Part shown: piece after piece, positions 5,049 to 25,060 of the stretch
Layout: every line of letters begins with the position of its first letter
Position numbering within the stretch: position 1 is the stretch's first letter
NCBI GenBank assembly: GCA_945861105.1
Contig: CAMASU010000001.1
Coordinates: 1-35,254, forward strand
Source of the DNA: Synechococcus sp. UW140
GTDB taxonomy: Bacteria; Cyanobacteriota; Cyanobacteriia; PCC-6307; Cyanobiaceae
Length of the DNA stretch: 35,254 nt
Direction: 5' to 3'
The notes under the pieces: model-generated
Told to the model about the DNA's origin: nothing
The model's database searches: none
The model's input: the letters and a program-made list of their open reading frames with translations, nothing else
Position numbers and translations under genes: made by a program

Positions 5049-5762
5049 ATGGCCGAGCTGCAGGACCGCATGAAGCAGGCCGTGGCCCTCGCCGCCGTGG
5101 ATCAGATCAAGGACGGCATGGTGCTGGGCCTTGGCTCCGGTTCGACGGCAGCGCTGATGATCCGCGAGCTGGGCGCCCGCCTGGCGGACGGTCGCCTGCG
5201 GTCCATCACCGGGGTGACCACCTCGTTCCAGGGGGAGGTGCTGGCGGCCGAACTGGGGATCCCCTTGCTGTCCCTCAATGCGGTGGACCGGATCGATCTG
5301 GCCATTGACGGCGCTGATGAGGTGGATCCGGCGTTCCAGCTGATCAAGGGTGGGGGAGCCTGCCATGTGCAGGAGAAGCTCGTGGCCTGCCGGGCCGAAC
5401 GGTTTGTGGTGGTGGTCGACGCCACAAAGCTGGTCTCCCGCCTCAACCTTGGCTTTCTTCTGCCTGTGGAGGTGTTGCCCGGTGCCTGGCGGCAGGTCAA
5501 CGCCCAGCTGACGGACCTCGGTGGCACGGCCGAGCTGCGCATGGCGGTTCGCAAGGCCGGACCTGTGGTCACCGACCAGGGCAACCTTGTGCTGGATGTC
5601 CGTTTTGACGGAGGCATCTCCGACCCGCGGGACCTGGAGACCCGCATCAACAATCTCCCCGGCGTGCTTGAGAACGGGCTCTTCGTCGATCTCGCCGATC
5701 AGGTGCTGGTGGGCGAGATTGTCGATGGTGAACCACGGGTGCGGGATCTTCCCCGGGCCTGA
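5049..5762 (+). CDS. rpiA: ribose-5-phosphate isomerase A
   Basis: RpiA interconverts ribose-5-phosphate and ribulose-5-phosphate, serving both the oxidative pentose phosphate pathway and the Calvin cycle. The 237-residue protein has the conserved loops GLGSGSTA (27-34), DGADEVDP (87-94) and [11 protein letters not shown] (100-110, with the catalytic Glu in QEK), and VVVDATKLV. The ATG at 5049 is used because it gives the usual [10 protein letters not shown] start and family length; a TTG 33 bp upstream would add an unconvincing leader. The gene begins 48 bp after the protease gene and ends 2 bp from the convergent hisD. Confidence 0.96.
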
Positions 5763-21621: not shown

Positions 21622-21834
21622 GTGCCCCAGCAGGTCCTCCGCTACCGCATCCGACCGGATGGACGGGTGGAGGAGCTTGTTGAAGGTCTGGTGGGTCCTG
21701 CCTGCACAGCCCTCACGGCTGCCATCGAGGCCCGCCTTGGACCTGTCGTCTCCACGGTGCCCACGACGGACCACTACGCCGCGCAATCCTCCGCCACCCT
21801 TTCCGATGTCGCACTTCAGCACAGTCCGCACTGA
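21622..21834 (+). CDS. DUF2997 family protein
   Basis: A 70-residue protein starting at GTG: MPQQVLRYRIRPDGRVEELV, then EGLVGPACTALTAAIEARLG. The pattern of an N-terminal strand pair (YRIRPDGRVEE) followed by a helix with GxxCxxLTxxIE is that of the DUF2997 family, found in cyanobacteria and plastids beside ycf35. The function is unknown. The 3' end overlaps ycf35 by 29 bp in another frame, so the two are probably translated together. The 52 bp upstream contain TACCAT (21594-21599), a possible -10 box, without a clear -35. Confidence 0.78.
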   Translation: MPQQVLRYRIRPDGRVEELVEGLVGPACTALTAAIEARLGPVVSTVPTTDHYAAQSSATLSDVALQHSPH

Positions 21835-22198
21835 GCTCCGCGACCGGAGCTCCCTGCTGTCGGCCCTCCGGGATCTTGGTTTTGACCCGAAGGAAGGTCA
21901 GACCCCAGTGCGTGGGTATCGGGGCCAGCAGGTGTCGGCTGATGTGGTCTGCCTCGAGCCCCAGGGCAGCGACATCGGTTTCCGCTGGAATGACCAGGCA
22001 GGCCACTACGACCTGGTCACGGATCTGGACCTCTGGAACCGTCCGGTGCCGGTGGAGCGGTTCCTGTCCCAGCTGCATCAGCGCTATGCCCTGCAGGCCA
22101 TCCTGGCCGGCTCGGCCAGTGAAGGGTTCAGTGTCACGGAGCAGCGCACCAGCCAGGACGGCAGCATCGAGCTGGTCGTCACCCGCTGGCAGGACTGA
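21806..22198 (+). CDS. ycf35: Ycf35 / DUF1257 family protein
   Basis: A 130-residue protein, MSHFSTVRTELRDRSSLLSA, with LRDLGFDPKEGQ, VRGYRGQQVSADVVC, DIGFRWNDQAGHYDLVTDLD and a C-terminal EQRTSQDGSIELVVTRW. This is the Ycf35 (DUF1257) family, encoded in many algal plastids and nearly all cyanobacteria; its function is unknown. The ATG at 21806 gives the family's standard MSHFSTV start. The frame is open upstream to 21659, but only inside the DUF2997 gene. The adjacency DUF2997-ycf35-ferredoxin suggests the three proteins work in one process, perhaps redox related, but no catalytic residues are recognisable. Confidence 0.92.
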   Translation: MSHFSTVRTELRDRSSLLSALRDLGFDPKEGQTPVRGYRGQQVSADVVCLEPQGSDIGFRWNDQAGHYDLVTDLDLWNRPVPVERFLSQLHQRYALQAILAGSASEGFSVTEQRTSQDGSIELVVTRWQD

Positions 22199-22233: not shown

Positions 22234-22614
22234 ATGGATCCCGCTCTGCTCTTTGAAGTTGATCCTGATCCAGACCGCCAGCGCACCGGTCTCGAACCCC
22301 TGCTGGGGGGAGACCTGCGTGATCGTGCGGTGTGGGTCGATGAAGCGGTGTGCATCGGTTGCCGTTACTGCGCCCATGTCGCCTGCAACACCTTTGTCGT
22401 GGAGCCCAGCCTGGGGCGCTCCCGGGTGATCCGTCAGGACGGCGACAGCCCGGAGCGGATCCAGGAGGCGATTGAAACCTGTCCTGTGGACTGCATCCAC
22501 TGGGTCGAACCCGAGCAATTGCCCGACCTGCGGCGGCGCCTCGACGATCAGGATCTGTTACCCCTTGGCCTCCCCAATCCCAGTCGCCCGCGACGGCTGC
22601 TGCCCCGGCGATGA
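22234..22614 (+). CDS. small [4Fe-4S] ferredoxin-like protein
   Basis: A 126-residue protein with one ferredoxin-type cluster motif: C40-IG-C43-RY-C46 near the start of the domain and C83-P in ETCPVDCIHW. Two more cysteines, C51 (in HVACNTF) and C87, lie close by; C51 occupies a spot that is often not cysteine in related proteins. VWVDEAVCIGCRYCAHVACN and the downstream SRVIRQDGDSPERIQEAIE match the cyanobacterial ferredoxin found beside ycf35. It is likely a soluble electron carrier; the partner is not known. GAGG precedes the ATG. Its stop overlaps the aldo/keto reductase start (ATGA, 22611-22614), a strong hint that the reductase is its partner. Confidence 0.88.
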   Translation: MDPALLFEVDPDPDRQRTGLEPLLGGDLRDRAVWVDEAVCIGCRYCAHVACNTFVVEPSLGRSRVIRQDGDSPERIQEAIETCPVDCIHWVEPEQLPDLRRRLDDQDLLPLGLPNPSRPRRLLPRR

Positions 22615-23828
22615 TCCCCACCCGCCGCTTCGGCCGCACCGGCCTGCCCATGCCGGTGCTGTCCCTGGGGGGCATGCGGTTCCAGCAGAGCTGGAGCGAT
22701 CTGCCCCCGGGGGAGCTGCGGGATGACTCCCAGGCCGGGGTCGAAGCGGTGCTGCACGCCGCCCGTGATGCCGGACTGCACCACGTCGAGACGGCCCGGC
22801 ATTACGGCACCTCCGAACGGCAGCTGGGTCTGGCCATGGCCCGCTGTCCTGATCCCCGCCGCCTGCTGCAGACCAAGGTGCCCCCCGATGCCGACCCGGC
22901 ACGCTTCGAGGCCGACCTGCGGCTCAGCTTCGAGCGCCTGCAGGTGGAGCGTGTCGACCTGGTGGCCGTGCATGGCATCAACCTGCCCGAACACCTCCAG
23001 CAGACCCTGCGACCGGGGGGCTGCCGGGAGGTGCTGGCCCGCTGGCAGGGCCAGGGACGCATCGGCCATGTGGGCTTCTCGACCCACGCCCCCCTGGCGT
23101 TGATCCTCGACGCCATTGCCAGTGATGCCTTCGATTACATCAACCTGCACTGGTATTACATCCGTCGCGACAACACGCCGGCCCTGCAGGCGGCCCGGCG
23201 CCACGACATGGGGGTGTTTCTGATCAGTCCCACCGACAAAGGCGGCCATCTGCACAGCCCGTCGCCGCGACTGCAGGAGCTGTGCGCTCCCCTGCATCCG
23301 ATCGTCTTCAACGATCTGTTCTGTCTGTCGACCCCCGAGGTGCACACCATCAGCGTCGGTGCCGCCCGCCCCTCCGACCTTGATCTGCACCTGGAGGCCG
23401 TGCGCTCGCTGGATCAGGCGGCGACCCTGCTGCCGCCCGTGGATGCCCGCCTGCAGGCGGCTCTGCTGGAGCGCCACGGCCAGGCCTGGCTGACCAGTTG
23501 GAGTGAGGGATTGCCCGCCTGGTCCGACACCCCCGGCGAGATCAACCTGCCGGTGCTGCTCTGGCTGCACACGCTGCTCGAGGGCTGGGATCTGCAGAGT
23601 TTCTGCCGTGCCCGCTATGGACTGCTGGGGCAGGGGGGGCACTGGTTCCCGGGGCGGAATGCCGCCGCCTTCGTTGATCCCGGCAAGGGGGATCTGCCAG
23701 CGGTGCGTGCAGACGACCTGCACAGGGTGCTGGTCGCCAGTCCCTGGCGGGAGCGGATTCCGGCGCTGCTGCACGATCTGCACCACCGCCTGGCCGGCCC
23801 TTCCGTGGGACGCCTGGGCGGCGATTAA
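22611..23828 (+). CDS. aldo/keto reductase (COG1453-like) with cysteine-free C-terminal domain
   Basis: The 405-residue protein has an aldo/keto reductase TIM barrel: RRFGRTGLPMPVLSLGGMRF at the start, ETARHYGTSE (E60 at the usual Asp position, Y65), a catalytic-position lysine in LLQTKVPP (K89) and AVHGIN (H121). GHVGFSTHAP and FNDLFCL are further family features. The C-terminal part (about 300-345), GEINLPVLLWLHTLLEGWDL and RARYGLLGQGGHWFPG, resembles the ferredoxin-like tail of COG1453 reductases. The cysteines that would bind iron-sulphur clusters are absent. Substrate unknown. The start overlaps the ferredoxin stop, and the end shares a TTAA with the convergent rsmG. Confidence 0.85.
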   Translation: MIPTRRFGRTGLPMPVLSLGGMRFQQSWSDLPPGELRDDSQAGVEAVLHAARDAGLHHVETARHYGTSERQLGLAMARCPDPRRLLQTKVPPDADPARFEADLRLSFERLQVERVDLVAVHGINLPEHLQQTLRPGGCREVLARWQGQGRIGHVGFSTHAPLALILDAIASDAFDYINLHWYYIRRDNTPALQAARRHDMGVFLISPTDKGGHLHSPSPRLQELCAPLHPIVFNDLFCLSTPEVHTISVGAARPSDLDLHLEAVRSLDQAATLLPPVDARLQAALLERHGQAWLTSWSEGLPAWSDTPGEINLPVLLWLHTLLEGWDLQSFCRARYGLLGQGGHWFPGRNAAAFVDPGKGDLPAVRADDLHRVLVASPWRERIPALLHDLHHRLAGPSVGRLGGD

Positions 23829-24550
23829 CCGGGGAGTTCCCCCAGGGGATGCTTCCCCGGGACTCCGACCGGACGGGGATAGCCGGGGGGGCAGGGGGCC
23901 AGGGGGGTGAGGGCGACGGCATGGCGGCGGCCCCGTCCCCCGGGAAGATCGAGGGCCCGCGGGGGCTCGACCCGCACCTGCAGAGTCGCTGCCGCCCGCT
24001 CGAGCGCGGCCGCATCCTCGGGGGTCCACTGGCCCCTGTACAGCAGCGCCGTGCCCTGGCTGGCCAGCAACGGCACCAGGTATTCGGCCACCACCGGTGC
24101 GGCGGCCACGGCCCTCGCCACCGCCAGCTGGAAGCGGCCCCGGCAGTCCCTGGCCCTGCCGGTCTTCTCTGCCCGTTCACAGCGCAGCACCACCCGCTCG
24201 GCCAGGCCCAGGGCCGTGGCCATCGCCCGCACGGCCTCCAGCTTGCGTCCCACCGAATCGACCAGGGTCAGCCGGGACCCGGGCAGGGCGATGGCGATCG
24301 CCAGGCCGGGAAAGCCGCCGCCGGTGCCGACATCAATGACCTCCAGGGGGGTCGGGGGATCGGCTGCCCCCTGCAGCCAGGGCACCACCGGCCAGAGACT
24401 GTCGAACACCTGGCCGATCCAGTAGTCCTCCCCCTCCACCAGGCGGGTGAGGTTCAGCCGACCGTTCCACAGCCGCAGCTCCTCCTGCAGCTGTTGCAGC
24501 AGGGACAGCTGCTCCCCCGTGGGGGACCAGCCGAGCAGGGACCAGGGCAT
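23825..24550 (-). CDS. rsmG: 16S rRNA (guanine527-N7)-methyltransferase
   Basis: RsmG (GidB) methylates N7 of G527 in 16S rRNA using S-adenosylmethionine. The 241-residue protein has the SAM motif VIDVGTGGGFPGLAIAI and TLVDSVGRKLEAV. It also has the substrate-site pattern LWNGRLNLTRL near the N-terminus and AVARAVAAAPVVAEYLVPLL. I chose the ATG at 24550 (MPWSLLGWSPTGEQL); no clear ribosome binding site is seen, and a longer frame extends to 24763, overlapping the divergent J-domain gene. The C-terminus, with GYPRPVGVPGKHPLGELPG, matches the family's conserved YPR/KxG.P ending. Loss of function is linked to low-level streptomycin resistance in other bacteria. Confidence 0.92.
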   Translation of the reverse strand: MPWSLLGWSPTGEQLSLLQQLQEELRLWNGRLNLTRLVEGEDYWIGQVFDSLWPVVPWLQGAADPPTPLEVIDVGTGGGFPGLAIAIALPGSRLTLVDSVGRKLEAVRAMATALGLAERVVLRCERAEKTGRARDCRGRFQLAVARAVAAAPVVAEYLVPLLASQGTALLYRGQWTPEDAAALERAAATLQVRVEPPRALDLPGGRGRRHAVALTPLAPCPPGYPRPVGVPGKHPLGELPG

Positions 24551-24622
24551 GGAGGTGGACAGATGCGGCAGGGCGCCAGGCCGGGCGAATCTTCTTAGGA
24601 TTGCAGCCGACAGCCAGCGGTC

Positions 24623-25060
24623 GTGTCTCCCCCCGGGTCCACCCATTACCAGCGGCTCGGTCTGTCCCCCCTGGCCAGCCCGGAGGAGGTCCGCCAGGCC
24701 TTCCGTCGACTCAGCAAGCAACTGCACCCCGACACCGCCCTGCTGCCTCCGGCCGAAGCCCACCGGGCCTTCAGGGACCTGCAGGAGGCCTACGCCATCC
24801 TCAGTGACCCCGACCGCCGCCGGGCCTACGACCGCCAGCTGGCCCTCGCGCCGCCGGCGATCCTGCCGACCCCGCCGCCACCCTCCCCACCATCGTCTGC
24901 GCCACGGTCAGCGGAGCTGTCCTCCCGCCGCCCCCTGTCGGGCGGGGAGTGGTTTGCCCTGGTGCTGCTCGGCGGTGCCCTCGGCTTTTCCCTGGTGCTG
25001 GGGGTCGGCCTGGCATGGTGGCGGGGCATGGCGCTGCTGCACGATGCTCCCCTCCCCTGA
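24623..25060 (+). CDS. membrane-anchored J-domain protein
   Basis: A 145-residue protein starting with GTG. Residues 8-70 form a J-domain (HYQRLGLSPLASPEEVRQAF, SKQLHPDTAL with the essential HPD at 35-37, LQEAYAILSDPDRRRAYD) that would stimulate a DnaK-type Hsp70. A Pro/Ser-rich linker follows (80-105), then one transmembrane helix (about 110-132, FALVLLGGALGFSLVLGVGL) and a short tail. There is no G/F region or zinc finger, so this is a type III J-protein that recruits Hsp70 to a membrane. Its last 17 bp overlap the next gene, DUF3143. It diverges from rsmG across a 72-bp gap. Confidence 0.83.
   Translation: MSPPGSTHYQRLGLSPLASPEEVRQAFRRLSKQLHPDTALLPPAEAHRAFRDLQEAYAILSDPDRRRAYDRQLALAPPAILPTPPPPSPPSSAPRSAELSSRRPLSGGEWFALVLLGGALGFSLVLGVGLAWWRGMALLHDAPLP

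Follow-up and report, generated by a model that had tools for sequence, protein, structure and literature searches.

The locus and its gene content

The stretch of DNA analysed (hereafter, the window) comprises 35,254 nucleotides from Synechococcus sp. UW140 (contig CAMASU010000001.1). An aldo/keto reductase (AKR) gene, designated akrA, is located between a small ferredoxin gene, fed7, and the convergent rsmG gene. The features relevant to this work are as follows.

21622-21834, + strand: DUF2997 gene, a member of the published cluster g (PF11211, E 1.2e-15)
21806-22198, + strand: ycf35 (DUF1257), which has long accompanied fed7 (PF06868, E 3.1e-35)
22234-22614, + strand: fed7 (fdx), predicted single [4Fe-4S] ferredoxin of 126 aa (PF13370 Fer4_13, E 4.2e-16; ferredoxin I 1dax, E 6.5e-13)
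22611-22614, + strand: ATGA overlap of the fed7 stop and the akrA start, read from the sequence
22611-23828, + strand: akrA, aldo/keto reductase of 405 aa with a COG1453-type tail lacking the cluster cysteines (PF00248, E 1.1e-15)
22611-23465, + strand: AKR barrel of akrA, residues 1-285, tetrad Glu60, Tyr65, Lys89 and His121 (Foldseek matches AKRs)
23466-23825, + strand: tail of akrA, residues 286-405, predicted helical ferredoxin-like domain without cluster ligands (HHalign against the akrB tail)
23490-23531, + strand: first of the two former cluster motifs, residues 294-307, with L294, W297, G300 and T307 at the Cys positions (alignment columns 446, 449, 452 and 459)
23670-23741, + strand: second of the two former cluster motifs, residues 354-377, with hydrophobic residues now at 354, 370 and 373 and S377 in place of the last Cys (columns 514, 542, 545 and 549)
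23825-24763, - strand: rsmG (16S rRNA methyltransferase), convergent with akrA and used as adjacency control (PF02527, E 9.3e-30)

The protein sample contains 146 distinct akrA proteins, 30 akrB proteins and 12 tail-bearing outgroup proteins. The designation akrB refers to a second COG1453-type AKR, found in the same genome (L004:784-1941), which displays eight tail cysteines and Pfam dicluster matches. The outgroup consists of proteins of further classes within the phylum, together with two from Clostridia (L235-L243, L245, L247, L248); plasmid searches retrieved distant AKRs only, from which the two Clostridia proteins were taken. The window belongs to family f1 of the whole-genome set, whose named relatives are Synechococcus and Cyanobium.

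The reductase barrel

The akrA protein scores 58 bits against PF00248, the curated cut-off being 24, and can thus be assigned to the aldo/keto reductase superfamily. Its putative catalytic tetrad, E60/Y65/K89/H121, is invariant in the alignment (146/146 akrA and 30/30 akrB proteins). AKRs mostly carry Asp at the first position of the tetrad. This usual catalytic residue is present in 13/13 outgroup sequences, whereas Glu is found throughout the cyanobacterial akrA and akrB proteins, the other three positions being kept in akrA. The E60 codon lies at 22788-22790 of the window. An AlphaFold2 model of akrA, computed from an alignment of 49 sequences, reaches a mean pLDDT of 91 and a pTM of 0.89, and Foldseek places AKRs at the top of its matches, L-galactose dehydrogenases foremost.

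A tail homologous to a [4Fe-4S] domain

The sequence-only reading had described the tail of akrA as COG1453-like, containing a single cysteine and lacking CxxC, and had noted a small [4Fe-4S] ferredoxin gene upstream with an ATGA overlap; both descriptions hold. The only cysteine of the tail, C332, coincides with none of the eight ligand positions. When profiles of the tails alone are compared using HHalign, akrA matches akrB with 99.7-99.8% probability (E 5e-26 to 3e-30) and the outgroup with 91-92%, so the similarity to the cluster domain, whose absence would have spoken against that reading, is present. The same comparison with Fed7, performed as a control, yields 0.4%, and a relationship between the tail and Fed7 was rejected. 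As its match to the tail of akrB, the cysteine-bearing paralog of the same genome, shows, the akrA tail is a former cluster domain, i.e. a ferredoxin-like domain homologous to the COG1453 [4Fe-4S] domain from which all eight ligands have been lost.

The alignment with cluster-bearing COG1453 proteins proposed by the sequence-only reading allows exact placement of the lost ligands, at akrA residues 294, 297, 300, 307, 354, 370, 373 and 377. The two CxxCxxCxxxC-type motifs with eight cysteines are complete in 30/30 akrB and 12/12 outgroup proteins. The window akrA retains 0/8 of these cysteines and the 146 akrA proteins 0-1/8 (none in 107, one in 39). At position 297, all 146 akrA proteins carry Trp, whereas the 42 paralogs and outgroup proteins all carry Cys. 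The remaining replacement residues are nearly as constant across the 146 proteins: L370 in 142, T307 in 138, S377 in 135 and G300 in 131. Cys373 is retained in 35/44 akrA proteins from outside the family (non-picocyanobacterial) in a gap-free stretch (CLARSPH versus CLPRCPH).

Timing of the cysteine loss

The akrA proteins form a single clade, with an SH-aLRT support of 100 both for full-length proteins and with the tail left out. Cyanobacterial akrA and akrB group together, away from the outgroup. Both trees are quick ones whose long outgroup branches make the exact position of akrB uncertain, the single akrA clade being recovered in both. Since the cysteines are present in both akrB and the outgroup and akrA forms one clade, the simplest history would place their loss on one branch, at the stem of the cyanobacterial akrA clade. 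Most sampled cyanobacteria carry the cluster-free akrA paralog.

Proposed function of akrA

The reading that we regard as probable is that akrA reduces carbonyls with NAD(P)H and contains no cluster, that its tail, whose ligands were lost once, plays a structural role, and that Fed7 is a later, separable neighbour. Cyanobacteria possess two COG1453-type AKRs, of which akrB keeps the two four-cysteine [4Fe-4S] motifs in its tail and akrA does not. All or all but one of its cluster cysteines disappeared in a single loss that predates the split of the sampled akrA lineages. The tail would have persisted as a folded domain free of clusters, the ligands having given way to conserved Trp, Leu, Gly, Thr and Ser, a replacement that can be read directly from the alignment; Trp, Leu and Ser may fill the former cluster sites. 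The protein itself most likely reduces carbonyls or sugar aldehydes in the ordinary way, with NAD(P)H as the donor. Since the tetrad and the barrel fold are intact, hydride would pass from the nicotinamide to the carbonyl of the substrate within the barrel, with no electron relay through a cluster. The tail probably stabilises or shapes the mouth of the active site or an oligomer.

In this interpretation, akrA would be a natural case of an enzyme domain outliving its iron-sulfur clusters, the cluster-bearing and cluster-free versions coexisting in the same oxygen-producing cells and one leftover cysteine persisting in most lineages. The akrA/akrB pair would allow a direct test of the role of the clusters in COG1453 enzymes. 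Cluster-less relatives of Fe-S proteins are a generally known phenomenon. The literature searched (COG1453, AKRs with rpiA, cluster-loss paralogs) contained nothing on the akrA family and no description of the cyanobacterial akrA/akrB pair.

Alternative readings

A possible though doubtful refinement of the proposed function ties akrA to rpiA, and thus to pentose phosphates, with sugar phosphates or sugar aldehydes as its substrates. In 13/40 loci outside the family (among L175-L214), rpiA (PF06026) precedes akrA and shares its strand, and the closest folds are those of L-galactose dehydrogenases. The gene is however absent from this position in the other 27 loci, the gaps range from 73 to 1634 bp, and in the window rpiA (5070-5756) lies about 17 kb from akrA; moreover, fold similarity among AKRs is no predictor of substrate. 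Sugars or small aldehydes remain the first substrate candidates because of this linkage and of the fold similarity.

The sequence-only reading had suggested that the cluster function moved to a partner protein. In a two-component reductase of this kind, Fed7 would replace the lost clusters, dock on akrA and relay electrons to or from the barrel, a reading that we consider very unlikely. Fed7 displays the features of a genuine [4Fe-4S] protein and has been placed in electron transfer chains (PMC4284462). The fed7 gene is directly upstream of akrA in 98/98 close picocyanobacterial loci, with a gap of -4 to +47 (some loci repeat one genome), and the stop/start overlap is observed in 58 of the 98 (gap of -4 in 33 and of -1 in 25). 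Such an overlap suggests that the two genes are co-transcribed. Its occurrence in many genomes also implies co-translation, often a mark of partners, and counts against the preferred reading of Fed7 as a separable neighbour.

Adjacency was compared with that of other genes, the unrelated rsmG serving as control. In picocyanobacteria, rsmG is convergent beside akrA in 73/74 loci, and dnaJ, HEAT and ycf35 are neighbours of akrA in 71/72, 73/73 and 76/76 loci, respectively. Because these genes are equally conserved beside akrA, the fed7-akrA adjacency is part of a generally frozen picocyanobacterial gene order, is no better conserved than akrA-rsmG, and was rejected as evidence in itself. That a start codon overlaps the stop of a ferredoxin gene can thus be a poor indicator of partnership. 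The conservation of the adjacency, on which the sequence-only reading depended, stands for most picocyanobacteria and fails beyond them: in 39/40 loci outside the family, the flanks of akrA (up to 6 kb where contigs allowed) contain no fed7, and in the fortieth (L184) a methyltransferase gene separates the two. In these 40 loci akrA faces rsmG, within 7-1215 bp, in six.

The genes are also lost separately. Among 90 class members outside the family (counted from tables), 79 carry both genes, three akrA without fed7 and eight fed7 without akrA; G147, G177 and G183 keep akrA and show no PF13370 match at E 0.001 in their genomes. Within the family, fed7 is present in 151/151 genomes and intact akrA is missing or broken in 10. 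A clean deletion has removed akrA from between fed7 and rsmG in G239, G257, G328 and G344 (loci L215, L257, L259 and L260). In G259, an akrA pseudogene that carries an in-frame stop and changes of frame and has lost parts of its sequence (L258:3826-4876) lies directly downstream of an intact fed7, and in G256 (L256) a sugar-transporter-like gene occupies the place of akrA. In G245 and G315 an intact akrA has been relocated to a site some 10 kb away from fed7, and in G306 to another contig; the seeming separation in G351 is only a contig end. The two genes are therefore not kept and lost together across lineages as a two-component AKR-ferredoxin system would imply, separate losses being found in both directions.

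The transfer of the cluster to Fed7 was rejected on timing, separate losses and the synteny control: the cysteine loss falls at the root of the akrA clade, before the adjacency arose and in lineages whose akrA has no such ferredoxin beside it, akrA exists without Fed7, and genomes with a deleted, decayed or relocated akrA still have Fed7. In addition, Fed7 carries one cluster versus the former two of the tail, the two being dissimilar, and its published partners are DnaJ and FTR, with a glutaredoxin in the pathway and no AKR (PMC4284462). In the preferred reading, fed7 came to lie beside akrA at a later time, within the picocyanobacterial lineage, and probably shares no more than a transcript with it. 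There is only a slim chance that picocyanobacterial Fed7 secondarily became a redox or regulatory partner of akrA, binding at the old cluster-domain site; the two genes would then have been brought together long after the cysteine loss.

It is similarly improbable that the tail of akrA is a decaying, functionless relic. All eight ligands are lost and residues 349-400 are more variable than the barrel (conservation of 0.577 versus 0.728). Residues 286-348 are however conserved like the barrel (0.716 versus 0.728), W297 and L370 vary little or not at all, and the tail is present and alignable in all 146 akrA proteins and is modelled by AlphaFold2 as ordered helices with high confidence. The comparison with the nearest relative gives a dN of 0.105 and a dS of 0.641 for the tail (dN/dS about 0.16), and the tail is thus under purifying selection.

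Finally, binding of a metal cluster through other cysteines of akrA, for instance C138, C225 and C238 of the barrel, is very unlikely: C238 is present in 146/146 and C138 in 143/146 akrA proteins, with neither in akrB, and C225 in 143/146, but these are three residues only, far apart in sequence and without CxxC, and C225 is also common to akrB and outgroup proteins, which possess clusters of their own. C138 (window 23022-23024) and C238 (23322-23324) are replaced by other residues in akrB. Their near or full invariance would nevertheless count against the preferred reading of a cluster-free reductase, which leaves both unexplained.

Comparison with known systems

The ferredoxin upstream of akrA can be identified as Fed7, with its own conserved neighbour ycf35. 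Its presumed ligands are C40, C43, C46 and C83, with C51 and C87 as extra cysteines. The single Fer4_13 [4Fe-4S] motif with an extra cysteine (C40, C43, C46, C83 and C87) has the spacing of Synechocystis Fed7, C53/C56/C59/C96/C100 (PMC4284462), the extra cysteine four residues past the last ligand being common to both. Like Fed7 (sll0662) of Synechocystis PCC 6803, the window protein is a Fer4_13 ferredoxin encoded directly downstream of ycf35, which ends 35 bp before fed7. The two genes adjoin in 20/20 loci fetched around fed7, of which 19 are outside the family of the window and one (G239) within. This arrangement belongs to the conserved cluster g, duf2997-ycf35-fed7 (PMC4284462); a HEAT gene is also found upstream of the fed7/akrA pair, with DUF2997 and ycf35. 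The difference lies downstream, where picocyanobacterial fed7 is followed by akrA and fed7 elsewhere is not.

The Fed7 of Synechocystis, a [4Fe-4S] protein, is required during iron, oxidative and metal stress; its two-hybrid partners are DnaJ sll1384 and FTRc, a glutaredoxin acts in the same pathway, and no AKR is mentioned (PMC4284462). In the DnaJ-Fer proteins of plants and Thaumarchaeota, the Fer domain groups with single-domain ferredoxins of cyanobacteria (PMC3564930), termed Fed7-like (PMC4284462). Unlike the window Fed7, these proteins are fused to a J domain and have no link to an AKR. Synechocystis Fed7 binds a DnaJ protein and its plant relative is fused to a J domain (PMC4284462, PMC3564930); in the window, a dnaJ gene (24623-25060), syntenic in 71/72 loci, is the third gene after fed7. 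Some genomes additionally encode a shorter ferredoxin of about 110 aa that resembles Fed7 (G201:C11:229749-230009, G205:C1:2122090-2122332, G346:C4:13517-13759 and G364:C2:200140-200379), the G201 copy containing an in-frame TGA.

The L-galactose dehydrogenases (8usu, 9w6y and 7ezl) are the best structural matches of the akrA model and share its barrel fold, but display about 20% identity and, judged from their length, no ferredoxin-like tail. The PDB sequence and fold searches returned no solved structure with a cluster-bearing tail among their matches. Among the closest known systems are the two-cluster COG1453 AKRs, akrB and the outgroup, which have the barrel, the tetrad positions, the domain order and a homologous tail in common with akrA; akrB also shares the change from Asp to Glu in the tetrad. 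From these cluster-bearing enzymes akrA differs by its 0-1/8 cluster cysteines and by a short insertion within the former first motif.
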